A DNA stretch of 64,000 bases from Flavimaribacter sediminis (GTDB lineage: Bacteria; Pseudomonadota; Alphaproteobacteria; Rhizobiales; Rhizobiaceae): the NCBI RefSeq assembly GCF_019492055.1, contig NZ_JAICBX010000002.1, positions 806,001-870,000 of the forward strand, in the 5' to 3' direction. The translations under genes and the position numbers were made by a program. The notes beneath the pieces were generated by a model that worked only from the letters and a program-made list of their open reading frames with translations, was not told where the DNA came from and ran no database searches. Every line of letters begins with the position of its first letter. The first letter of the stretch is position 1. Positions 1,019 to 46,851 of the stretch are shown here, in pieces.

Positions 1019-2188
1019 TTAGGATTTGCGCGACAACAGCAGTGCCAATGCGGCCGAGATTGCCCCGAAAGCGCACGTGCCGGTCCAGCCCCACACAGCA
1101 TAGGCAGAGCCACCAATGCCAGCACCGACGGCACCCCCGGCGAGCATGGTTGCCATGAACACGGTGTTGAGCCGGCTTCGGGCGGCCGGATCGAGCGCAT
1201 AGATGCGCGCCTGATTGGCGACTTGCGAGGACTGCACCGCAAGGTCCATTACCACAATGCCGACAATCAGGCCGATGAGGGAACCTTGCCAAAGCCAGAA
1301 GATGAGGAAGGCGAGCACCACAAGGCCTGCGCCGATCGACACGACCATGGCCGGCCCGCGCCGGTCTGCTAAACCTCCGGCGACTGGCGCAGCGAGCGCG
1401 CCTGCAACCCCGACAAGTGCCAGAAGACCAACCGCAGTACCACCAAGCTGATAGGTTGGTTCAGCCAACAACAGCGCGAGATTCGACCAAAAACCGATGA
1501 AGGCTGCGAAGATCAGGAATTGCACCGCGACCGCTCGCCGGAGAACGCCATACGTCCGCACCAGCGTCCCGAGCGAGCCAAGCAGACGCGGATAGCTCAG
1601 ATCAGTTGTCGGCGGCACGCGGGGCAACCAGAGCGCCAACGCCACACCGATCGCAATCATCACGGCCGCCGCGAACCAGAACACGAAAGGCCAACCCCAA
1701 AGGTCCGAGATTGTGCCGCTGACGGTGCGTGCAACGAGGATGCCGATCAGGATGCCGCCTGTCACCTTGCCGAGAATGCGTCCGCGCTCCATTGGCGGGG
1801 CCAGATGCACGGCGAGCGGCACAATCTGCTGCGCAACTGTGGCGAACAGGCCGACCGCGAGGCTGGCTGCGGCAAGCCACACGAACCCCGGCGAGACAGC
1901 CGCGCCGATTAGCGCGGCCACAAGGACGGCGATGGTCGCGAGGATGAGGGATTTGCGTTCGAGTCGGTCCCCAAGTGGGGCGAGAAACAGCACGCCGAGC
2001 GCATTACCGGCCTGGGTCAGCACCGGCACGATCGCGGCGATCCCCGCTGCCAGCCCGAAATCTGTGGTCAGATGGCCGAGAAATGCCTGATTGTAGTAGC
2101 TGTTGGCGACGGCCGCGCCGGCGCCGATCGCCAGGAGACGGACCAGGGCGGCTGACAAGCGTTCGGTTGAGGAATGTTCTGTCTGCAT
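1019..2188 (-). CDS. MFS transporter (12 TM drug/metabolite exporter type)
   Basis: A 389-residue integral inner-membrane protein, the usual length for a 12-helix major facilitator. The conserved loop between helices 2 and 3 is present as APLGDRLERKSLI (family pattern GxLaDRxGRkxxl), and a second copy of the pattern occurs in the C-terminal half as GGLADRRGPAMV, reflecting the 6+6 repeat. Substrate cannot be read from the sequence; proton-driven efflux is the likeliest role. It is divergent from a LysR-type regulator with 81 bp between the two start codons, the standard layout for a regulator controlling its neighbour. Both lie inside the inverted-repeat element, so the pair is probably cargo. 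Confidence 0.85.
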   Translation of the reverse strand: MQTEHSSTERLSAALVRLLAIGAGAAVANSYYNQAFLGHLTTDFGLAAGIAAIVPVLTQAGNALGVLFLAPLGDRLERKSLILATIAVLVAALIGAAVSPGFVWLAAASLAVGLFATVAQQIVPLAVHLAPPMERGRILGKVTGGILIGILVARTVSGTISDLWGWPFVFWFAAAVMIAIGVALALWLPRVPPTTDLSYPRLLGSLGTLVRTYGVLRRAVAVQFLIFAAFIGFWSNLALLLAEPTYQLGGTAVGLLALVGVAGALAAPVAGGLADRRGPAMVVSIGAGLVVLAFLIFWLWQGSLIGLIVGIVVMDLAVQSSQVANQARIYALDPAARSRLNTVFMATMLAGGAVGAGIGGSAYAVWGWTGTCAFGAISAALALLLSRKS

Positions 2189-8127: not shown

Positions 8128-9578
8128 GTTTCCAGCGTTTTGCGCGTTCCGGATTTCCAAAGTGAATTCAGGGCTTTGGCGAAGGCCTCGGCAAAGGGCG
8201 TCCGATCCTTAAGGAGACCGAAAATGTCGCCCATGGCAAGCCAGGCGGACGGATTGCTCCGCGCTTCAAGCGCGGTCTTGTTGAGCCTTTCGGCATTCAC
8301 ATCGTCGATGACGATCGGCGCGCCGTCGTCAGTTTCGCCCGCGCAATAGCGGCACCACAGGGCGACCTCCAAGGCGAGACCGTCAACAGGTTGTCCGGCG
8401 TCGAGCCTGTCGGCGACCGTGGGCAGGATGAATTTCGGCTGCCGGTTGGACCCGTCGAGGCAAAGCCGCGCGATCGTGTCGCCAACCTTTGGATTGGAGA
8501 AACGCTCGGCCACCTTTCGGAAATAGCTGTCGAGATCGACGCCCGGAACCGGCGGCACTGTGGGGATGATCTCGCTGTGCTCCAGTTTTTCGAGAAAGCC
8601 GCGCACGAGCGGCTCTTCCATGGCGTCGTGGGCGAAGCGCAGGCCCATCAGGCCCGAAGGATAGGCGATCGCGGCGTGACCGCCGTTGAGGATCCTGAGC
8701 TTCATCAGTTCGAACGGGCCGACATCGGGGACGAATTCCACCCCGACTTTCTCGAGCGCCGGGCGGCCAAGCGGGAAATGATCTTCCAGAACCCATTGCC
8801 GGAACGGCTCGCAGACGACGGGCGAAGCGTCCTCGATATCGAAGGTGTCCTGCAGCAGCTTCCGTTCGCGATCGCCGGTGGCGGGCGTGATGCAATCGAC
8901 CATGCCGCTGGGAAACGCGACGTTCCCGGTGATCCAGTCGCCCAGCTCCGGCGAAATCAGACTGGCAAGACCGGTGACGGCGTCTCTGCAGACCTTGCCA
9001 TTGTCCGGAAGATTGTCGCAGCTCATGACTGTGAACGGGGCAAGCCCTGCTTCACGGCGGCGGACGAGCCCGGCGATCAGCATGCCGAACACCGTGGACG
9101 GCGCATCGCGATTGCGACTGTCGGCGACGATGTCCGGATGATCGGCCTGAAACCCGCCGCGCTTTGCGTCGAGATAGTAGCCGCCTTCCGTAATGGTGAG
9201 CGAGACGATGCGGGTTTCCGGCCGCGCCATCGCCGCGATGATCGCCCCGGCGTCGATTTCCGCGAAGTCGATCATTGCGCCGCAGATGCGCGCCGTATAG
9301 CCGGCCGGGTCAAGCTCCAGAACCGTCGTCAGCCAGTCTTGCTTTTCCAGGGTCGCTCGCATTTTCGCGTCGTACGGTTTGACGCCTGCGCCGGTGATCG
9401 CCCAGTCGTGATCGTCTCCCATGGAGAAGAGACGGTCGAGATACACCTGCTGGTGGGCGCGATGAAAATTGCCGACCCCGACATGAACAATCCCGGACGT
9501 CAGGGCGGAACGGTCATATGCGGGTGCGCTCACACCCTTGGGAGGGTGTTCCAGGAGGCGGCGGTCAAGTCTGGGCAT
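8112..9578 (-). CDS. mtlK: mannitol 2-dehydrogenase (polyol-specific long-chain dehydrogenase)
   Basis: A 488-residue member of the polyol-specific long-chain dehydrogenases. It oxidises D-mannitol (often also D-arabitol and D-sorbitol) to the ketose with NAD. The nucleotide-binding segment is IVHVGVGNFHRAHQQVYLD at about residues 29-47. The catalytic set Lys, Asn and His is present in the right spacing in KLRILNGGHAAIAY. It is the last gene of the polyol operon, right after a broken SDR gene. Because the SDR partner is lost, this enzyme is probably the operon's only working dehydrogenase. Confidence 0.9.
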   Translation of the reverse strand: MPRLDRRLLEHPPKGVSAPAYDRSALTSGIVHVGVGNFHRAHQQVYLDRLFSMGDDHDWAITGAGVKPYDAKMRATLEKQDWLTTVLELDPAGYTARICGAMIDFAEIDAGAIIAAMARPETRIVSLTITEGGYYLDAKRGGFQADHPDIVADSRNRDAPSTVFGMLIAGLVRRREAGLAPFTVMSCDNLPDNGKVCRDAVTGLASLISPELGDWITGNVAFPSGMVDCITPATGDRERKLLQDTFDIEDASPVVCEPFRQWVLEDHFPLGRPALEKVGVEFVPDVGPFELMKLRILNGGHAAIAYPSGLMGLRFAHDAMEEPLVRGFLEKLEHSEIIPTVPPVPGVDLDSYFRKVAERFSNPKVGDTIARLCLDGSNRQPKFILPTVADRLDAGQPVDGLALEVALWCRYCAGETDDGAPIVIDDVNAERLNKTALEARSNPSAWLAMGDIFGLLKDRTPFAEAFAKALNSLWKSGTRKTLETYLSG

Positions 9579-45987: not shown

Positions 45988-46016
45988 GTTGGCAAAGCCG
46001 GATGGCGACCCCATAT
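45988..46016 (+). promoter_or_regulatory. RpoH (sigma-32)-type promoter of hsp20
   Basis: GTTG (45988-45991), 18-bp spacer, CCCATAT (46010-46016), then TAG. This agrees with the alphaproteobacterial heat-shock pattern CTTG-N17/18-CYTATNTnnG except for two bases. Transcription would begin near 46021-46024, just before the two leader hairpins. Confidence 0.6.
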
Positions 46017-46025
46017 TAGGGCAAG

Positions 46026-46081
46026 CGAAACGCTGCGAGCAGGTTTCGTCTTACAAGTCGCTTGAAGCAAGGACCGAAATG
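46026..46081 (+). promoter_or_regulatory. ROSE-type RNA thermometer in the hsp20 leader
   Basis: Two hairpins fill the short leader. The first (46026-46048) pairs CGAAAC with GTTTCG and CTG with CAG around a CGAG loop, leaving one bulged G. The second (46057-46074) pairs GTC-(G)-CTTG with CAAG-GAC around AAG; its 3' arm contains the ribosome-binding site AAGGA. The 5' arm contains TCGCT, matching the ROSE consensus U(U/C)GCU opposite the Shine-Dalgarno sequence, again with a bulged G. This is the known design of rhizobial ROSE elements, which open on heating. Pairing is seen; the function is inferred from that family. Confidence 0.75.
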
Positions 46082-46510
46082 ACAATGTCTCGAATGACGC
46101 CGTTTTCAAGCCCGCTGATGCTTGGCTTCGACACGATGGAAAAGACCCTTGAGCGGATCGCCAAGGGCAGCGACGGCTACCCGCCATACAACATAGAACG
46201 GTTGATGGAGGATGGTTCCCCCACCCAGAAGCTGCGAATTACGCTTGCAGTCGCAGGGTTTTCGCGCGACGAGCTCGACGTGAGCCTGCAGGAGAACCAG
46301 CTTGTCATTCGCGGCCAGCAGGTCGATTCCCAGGAGCGGGACTATCTCTACCGGGGAATAGCGGCGCGGCAGTTCCAGAAAAGCTTCATGCTCGCCGACG
46401 GAATGCAGGTGTTGAGCGCCGAACTGAAAAACGGACTTCTGGCCATCGATCTGGCGAAGCCGGAACCGGAACGTTACGTCAAGAAAATCGATATCTCCGT
46501 CACGGATTGA
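46079..46510 (+). CDS. Hsp20/IbpA-type small heat-shock protein
   Basis: A 143-residue alpha-crystallin protein. The domain runs from about residue 38 to 130, with KLRITLAVAGFSRDELDVSL, then VIRGQQ, YRGIAARQFQKSFMLADGMQ and the closing GLLAIDL. The C-terminal IxI-like end is KKIDISV. It holds unfolding proteins for refolding by DnaK. The ATG at 46079 follows AAGGA by five bases inside a thermometer-like hairpin, under an RpoH-type promoter. A DUF1150 gene follows and is probably cotranscribed. Confidence 0.93.
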   Translation: MTMSRMTPFSSPLMLGFDTMEKTLERIAKGSDGYPPYNIERLMEDGSPTQKLRITLAVAGFSRDELDVSLQENQLVIRGQQVDSQERDYLYRGIAARQFQKSFMLADGMQVLSAELKNGLLAIDLAKPEPERYVKKIDISVTD

Positions 46511-46593: not shown

Positions 46594-46851
46594 ATGTTGG
46601 AAGAAAAGAACACAATCCGGATCAGCAAGGACGAACTGGCGCATCTTGGCGAAGGCCAGGTCGGCTATGTGCGCAAGATGACATCCGATGAACTGATCGA
46701 GCGCTTTCCGGGCGCTGCAGATCTGCAGGCGGGCCTCAATCTCTGGGCCCTGTTCGCCGCAAACGGCACCCCGATCATGCTGAGCGACGATGCGTCGACG
46801 CCCTATGTGACGGCGGCTGAAAACCAGCTGAACACCGTCAGCGTTCACTAA
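46594..46851 (+). CDS. DUF1150 family protein
   Basis: An 85-residue protein of the alphaproteobacterial DUF1150 family: IRISKDELAHLGEGQVGYVR, then KMTSDELIERFP and GLNLWALFAANGTPIMLSDD. No function is known; relatives typically follow an hsp20 gene, as here (83-bp gap). The ATG at 46594 has AAGGAG eight bases upstream. It is soluble and shows no signal or membrane segment. Confidence 0.88.
   Translation: MLEEKNTIRISKDELAHLGEGQVGYVRKMTSDELIERFPGAADLQAGLNLWALFAANGTPIMLSDDASTPYVTAAENQLNTVSVH

Follow-up and report, generated by a model that had tools for sequence, protein, structure and literature searches.

The 64,000-nucleotide stretch of Flavimaribacter sediminis DNA that we analysed (the window) carries, on its forward strand, a gene for an Hsp20 small heat-shock protein followed by a DUF1150 gene, and the short interval in front of the former holds a promoter region and two potential RNA hairpins, the second of which takes in the Shine–Dalgarno sequence. 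The features are as follows.

45988..45994, + strand: degenerate −35 region, GTTGGC in the RpoH register and TTGGCA in a sigma-70-like register.
46011..46016, + strand: −10 element CCATAT, RpoH type, lying in CCCCATAT, which begins at 46009; CCATAT or a close variant occurs in 96 of 99 distinct leaders.
46026..46048, + strand: hairpin 1, stable, with bulged G 46032 in a C[G]C/GG context, from fold, conservation and covariation; a possible extension covers 46023–46052.
46057..46074, + strand: hairpin 2, the putative thermosensing hairpin, with bulged G 46060, GUC[G]CUUG being paired with CAAGGAC, from fold, conservation, covariation and model.
46069..46073, + strand: Shine–Dalgarno sequence AAGGA, within the 3′ arm of hairpin 2, from sequence and conservation.
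46079..46510, + strand: Hsp20 small heat-shock protein gene (PF00011, E value 2.6e-18).
46594..46851, + strand: DUF1150 gene downstream of the Hsp20 gene; related loci also have one close to this Hsp20.

Transcription is predicted to start at approximately 46022–46024, which gives hsp20 a leader of approximately 55–57 nt before the ATG at 46079. Counted from the promoter, 62 nt separate the CCATAT −10 element from this ATG, and approximately 55 of these would be transcribed if the start lies 6–8 nt past the −10. The start codons of relatives line up with a second ATG in the same frame, at 46085; the distance from the −10 to this aligned ATG is 68 nt in the window, and the relatives have a median of 66 nt and a range of 55–89 nt (n=96). 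Hairpin 1 reads CGAAAC[G]CUG-CGAG-CAGGUUUCG and hairpin 2 reads GUC[G]CUUG-AAG-CAAGGAC, with the Shine–Dalgarno sequence hidden opposite the bulged G. Each of the two leader hairpins has a single bulged G on its 5′ side, and both bulges are present in the minimum-free-energy folds. The original prediction had described an hsp20 leader of approximately 55 bases in two stems, with AAGGA held against TCGCTTG and a bulged G, and on these points the sequence and the folds agree with it.

The folding energy of the leader is close to that of shuffled sequence (z score of −0.06 against 200 shuffles, 88 of which fold at least as well), and the case for structure is therefore decided by comparison with related leaders. 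The computed opening of the Shine–Dalgarno sequence rises from 0.4% at 20°C to 8–9% at 42°C for starts at 46022–46023, and from 3.5 to 17% over the same interval for a start at 46020, although some opening with heat is to be expected of any hairpin. At 37°C hairpin 2 has a computed stability of −4.8 kcal/mol with its bulge compared with −8.6 kcal/mol without it, i.e. the bulge costs the stem approximately 4 kcal/mol. In the energy model hairpin 2 is still largely closed at 42–45°C, and complete melting at 42°C is not predicted.

Of 297 genomes sampled from the family (Rhizobiaceae), 263 encode a relative of the Hsp20 protein at an E value of 1e-45 or better, and Pararhizobium sp. ih9 is a close relative of the window genome, with 99% protein identity. 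The comparison drew on 122 loci (L004–L125), among them the window's own copy and some repeats; 60 of the 122 were chosen among the matches listed, mostly one per genus, with five repeats, and the other 62 came from earlier searches in sets of 32 and 30. The N-terminus was too divergent in 13 loci, which left 109 loci and 99 distinct leaders. Within these 99, GTYGCT lies 15–45 nt before the start codon in 96, and an [AG]AGG[AG] site is present in every one. Our main alignment (A1) comprises 88 of these leaders, the 11 excluded being L018, L020 and L081, in which no −10 was found, the divergent L015, L016, L017, L019 and L021, the near duplicate L052, and L057 and L062, which have long inserts. 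The anti-Shine–Dalgarno motif U[C/T]GCU, represented in the window by UCGCU at 46058–46062 facing AAGGAC, is kept in 88/88 aligned leaders, and the bulged nucleotide of hairpin 2 is likewise a G in all 88.

When run unaided on the 88 leaders, RNAalifold returned the bulged form of hairpin 2 and, for hairpin 1, its four outer pairs. Single folds supplied two further, inner pairs of hairpin 1, which we added by hand and by which its G becomes a bulge; these are present in 81 and 87 of the 88 rows, and the C-G pair beside the bulge is absent, as aligned, in seven. In the resulting two-hairpin structure 95.0% of the cells pair compared with 85.7% in shuffles. The cells changed on both sides number 144 compared with 57.4 in the shuffles, and the covariation score is 0.396 compared with 0.217. 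Sliding the structure by one to three columns reduces this score to at most 0.173, and every slid version falls below the true structure in both paired percentage and covariation score. Two coarser counts do not set the structure apart: pairs showing at least one two-sided change number six, compared with 5.9 in shuffles, and single slid versions reach up to seven such pairs (compared with six) or 22 further pair types (compared with 21). Outer pairs of hairpin 1 covary across the 88 leaders; the Shine–Dalgarno/anti-Shine–Dalgarno pairs are nearly invariant, with the upper pair alternating between U-A and C-G.

The same leaders bear on the idea that the RNA is a two-state switch, in which CAAGCGA (46022–46028) would pair with UCGCUUG (46058–46064) and so free the ribosome site. 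All three genomes of the genus examined allow seven perfect pairs of this kind, but an exact complement of at least 6 nt is found in six of the 88 leaders, three of them from this genus and the other three with 6 nt. In addition, the computed probability of the pairing is below 0.03 up to 45°C and at most 0.08 at 50°C, and a transcription start at 46023 or later would remove part of CAAGCGA. Given the low computed probability and the rarity of the complement, we rejected this switch, which we consider highly improbable.

A covariance model was made from 68 of the 88 leaders (A2), three members of the genus and 17 rows that looked poorly aligned having been dropped by eye, a choice by which the paired percentage of A2 is flattered. 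This genus-free model scores the window at 41.9 bits, with an E value of 7.9e-8 in the whole 5.7-Mb genome, and the window is its only significant match there, the next place having an E value of 0.33. A model match of 14.2 bits at 8927–8997 on the minus strand is weak and was taken as chance. Beyond the genome itself, the model matches L142, one of two loci over the ROSE_3 threshold, with 27.9 bits (E value 9.5e-6), and the other, L143, weakly (E value 0.0076). It also matches the hsp20 leaders of two Uliginosibacterium (L030 and L033) and of an unclassified proteobacterium (L032), with E values of 3.8e-5 to 7.6e-4, and gives no significant match to L027 (Massilia, E value 0.32), L145, L146 or L147. 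Across 190 genomes of the class, searched with stricter filters, ten were matched, including its own; a pattern check found an Hsp20-like open frame in four of the other nine, and in a fifth, G510, the match lies directly before an Hsp20 gene.

Searched against Rfam itself, the window has no match, either at the gathering threshold or at E values up to 10. The window element does not reach the 43-bit cut-off of RF02523 (ROSE_3), a family that has eight matches in the window's own genome (best E value 0.228), none of them at the window place. Nor does it reach the 45-bit cut-off of RF00435 (ROSE), for which the only place listed in this genome is the leader of a paralogue, at 23.5 bits. When 20 sources were tested for ROSE families, L042 was the only one matched, with 32.3 bits compared with a cut-off of 43, and RF02523 exceeds its cut-off in none of 61 genomes of the window's family and in two of 150 genomes of the phylum (stricter filters). 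RF02523 is a 69-nt model of two hairpins with a consensus bulged G in both hairpin 1 and the sensing hairpin, and this layout is present in the window when the ROSE_3 alignment is set against our folds and counts, but the window clade scores below the curated cut-off. Because the window lies below the Rfam thresholds and none of the 61 family genomes passes, we do not file the element as a member of RF02523.

The paralogue is the second hsp20 of the genome (L003, approximately 1510–1620, minus strand), whose leader is longer and is the source of the weak RF00435 match. A 110-nt fold of this leader contains three hairpins, which are not seen in shorter folds; each has one 5′-side bulged G, and the middle hairpin has further mismatches. 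As to the neighbouring gene, a DUF1150-like protein (score of at least 100, anywhere on the locus and on either strand) is found in 44 of 59 loci, some genomes being counted twice. The 15 loci that have none are L023–L035 (beta- and gammaproteobacteria, sphingomonads and unclassified) and the borderline L018 and L020. The Hsp20–DUF1150 pair looks like a conserved unit in the nearer relatives.

The RpoH-type −10, CCCCATNT, is matched perfectly by CCCCATAT at 46009–46016. A CTTG −35 is found at 17 nt in 74, and at 16 nt in four, of the 86 relatives outside the genus that have CCATAT, the remaining eight having neither; in all three genomes of the genus examined a CTTG-type −35 at approximately 17 nt is absent and GTTGGC is present instead. 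On a matrix made from the 74 relatives the −35 of the window scores −9.4, their own minimum being 5.7. The sole sigma-70-like match of the region is TTGGCA-17-CATATT, with 9/12 (shuffled mean of 0.4 matches). The missing CTTG at 45988–45994, despite the perfect −10, may point to a change towards a housekeeping promoter or one of mixed type. With a perfect −10 but a poor −35, the RpoH promoter of the original prediction is half supported, its −10 standing and its −35 not. Since the −35 is degenerate, we only infer double heat control of hsp20, i.e. of both transcription and translation.

Control of small heat-shock protein genes by RpoH is well known. This knowledge, together with the perfect RpoH-type −10, would suit an explanation in which heat acts through RpoH-driven transcription alone, the hairpins of the leader being no more than a common, weak structure that sequesters the site. 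However, the bulge and the anti-Shine–Dalgarno motif are conserved and hairpin 1 covaries across the family, and it is in precisely this genus that the −35 is poor; we therefore regard control by RpoH only as unlikely.

The leader shares with ROSE-like elements a U(U/C)GCU motif whose pairing with the Shine–Dalgarno sequence in the 3′-proximal hairpin is imperfect, a bulged G opposite that sequence (G46060, unpaired in the folds), a position in the 5′ leader of a small heat-shock gene and a further 5′ hairpin, in this case hairpin 1, with its covarying pairs and computed stability. ROSE elements have been reported for small heat-shock protein genes of M. loti, S. meliloti and R. leguminosarum (PMC3989490, PMC2873474, PMC11784457). 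The classic rhizobial ROSE (RF00435) has the same sensing hairpin, but the window leader has two hairpins compared with the three to four of classic elements (PMC3669281); ROSE elements elsewhere are described with two to four (PMC10474464, PMC9450479). A closely similar build is that of the short ROSE of Pseudomonas ibpA (Krajewski et al. 2013, PMC3669281), in which a leader of 61–62 nt contains two hairpins, U(U/C)GCU lies opposite the Shine–Dalgarno sequence in hairpin 2, the promoter is of RpoH type and the gene encodes a small heat-shock protein. The window differs from it in belonging to another bacterial class, in having a DUF1150-linked Hsp20 and a degenerate −35, and in being known here from sequence alone. 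The two-hairpin elements of 61–62 nt are reported to be functional in Pseudomonas, melting being confined to hairpin 2; disrupting pairs of hairpin 1 led to derepression there and deleting hairpin 1 left control in place, and the same report describes the role of upstream ROSE hairpins as not fully understood (PMC3669281). The suggestion that the window carries a ‘minimal’ ROSE is thus correct as regards its short length, but this length is not unusual, given the Pseudomonas elements and a spacing that is ordinary for the relatives.

Taken together, these data indicate that the leader is very probably a cis-acting RNA thermometer of the ROSE type, in a compact two-hairpin form, placed before hsp20, and the anti-Shine–Dalgarno motif, the bulged G and their conservation uphold what had been predicted in this respect. 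The sequence has two conserved, covarying hairpins, a sequestered Shine–Dalgarno sequence and the bulge; melting, translational control and heat-dependent transcription would be expected by analogy with the ROSE family. At growth temperature hairpin 2 would pair the Shine–Dalgarno sequence with the anti-Shine–Dalgarno GUC[G]CU, a pairing weakened by the bulged G. On heating, hairpin 2 would open, the 30S subunit would bind and Hsp20 would be made, and hairpin 1, which would remain folded, may support or protect the leader.

Hairpin 1 has a further property, in that neither its bulged G nor the C that follows varies in any of the 88 leaders, and in the window its C[G]C/GG core is letter-identical to the core of the sensing hairpin. 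Of 96 compact leaders, 85 have a hairpin of the Y[G]C/GG type ahead of the sensing hairpin, compared with a mean of 4.5 and a maximum of 11 in shuffles, and the other 11 have none. Such hairpins also occur in 40 of 56 other, longer small heat-shock leaders (shuffled mean 7.6, maximum 12), 14 of which have two, and are absent in 16. These longer leaders, taken from 60 loci that gave 57 distinct leaders, one being too short, are putative ROSE elements and come mostly from other families or classes, with about six from the window's family. Controls with a bulged A, C or T gave 2, 1 and 2 of the 96 compact and 4, 8 and 7 of the 56 longer leaders, all within the shuffle range. Shuffling takes no account of relatedness among the leaders, for which these controls, drawn from the same sequences, partly compensate. 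A looser scan found the bulged G in 70/96 compact and 52/56 longer leaders (shuffled maxima of 14 and 19 respectively), and the bulged A in 15/56 longer leaders, slightly above the shuffled maximum of 13. The ibpA leader of E. coli K-12, folded from L164 upstream of 7423 on the minus strand, forms three hairpins in folds of 100–110 nt, each with one 5′-side bulged G, two in the C[G]C/GG context, as in the window, and one in U[G]U/AA; unlike the window leader, it is longer, has three hairpins and belongs to a gammaproteobacterium. From the Y[G]C/GG repeats across leaders and the E. coli ibpA bulges, ROSE leaders resemble a single hairpin repeated in tandem, with the last copy over the ribosome site. 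In the literature searched, we did not find the bulged G of hairpin 1 described as repeating the sensing motif, although such a description may be in print, an older ROSE paper being outside the scope of the search.

The upstream G might be kept either for a G-G pair in the stem geometry or because it is recognized. On the latter possibility, the bulged-G hairpin would serve not just for melting but as a recognition module through which the Hsp20 oligomer attaches to hairpin 1 (together with hairpin 2), so that Hsp20 represses its own synthesis until clients titrate it and the leader senses both heat and aggregation. The invariance of the G and C of hairpin 1, which hides no ribosome site, is consistent with such recognition, as is the excess of Y[G]C/GG hairpins in both sets of leaders over controls that stay within the shuffle range. 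In E. coli, IbpA is reported to bind and repress its own mRNA via the leader, for which R93 and Y34 are needed, and conservation of this self-repression in alphaproteobacteria has been suggested (PMC10474464). The window Hsp20 keeps the arginine (GIAAR) and the tyrosine (GYPPYN) at the aligned places. However, R97 is replaced by lysine, a change tolerated in E. coli (PMC10474464), and K98 by serine, and in this clade Hsp20 is only a candidate for binding. The G may be invariant merely for a G-G pair, as in the sensing hairpin of B. japonicum (PMC11342760), hairpin 2 of Pseudomonas alone retained heat control (PMC3669281), and the bulged A also rose slightly above the shuffles in the looser scan. 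We therefore hold self-repression by Hsp20 to be doubtful. Equally tentative is the wider idea that ROSE elements are tandem Y[G]C/GG arrays whose upstream copies are bound by the very small heat-shock protein that the mRNA encodes; the leader would then sense heat and the supply of free chaperone, and the element in the window would be the smallest array, with two copies.

Returning to the ROSE-type thermometer, the element is a well-supported addition to the short ROSE thermometers, ordinary in kind and below the Rfam cut-off. It extends the short two-hairpin ROSE to family-wide rhizobial leaders missed by that cut-off, and the alignment of 88 leaders and the covariance model provide a resource for compact rhizobial ROSE elements. 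If the tandem-module reading is true, only the last copy would overlap the ribosome site. The invariant bulged G of hairpin 1, a repeat of the sensing module, opens the role of the upstream ROSE hairpins to direct test.
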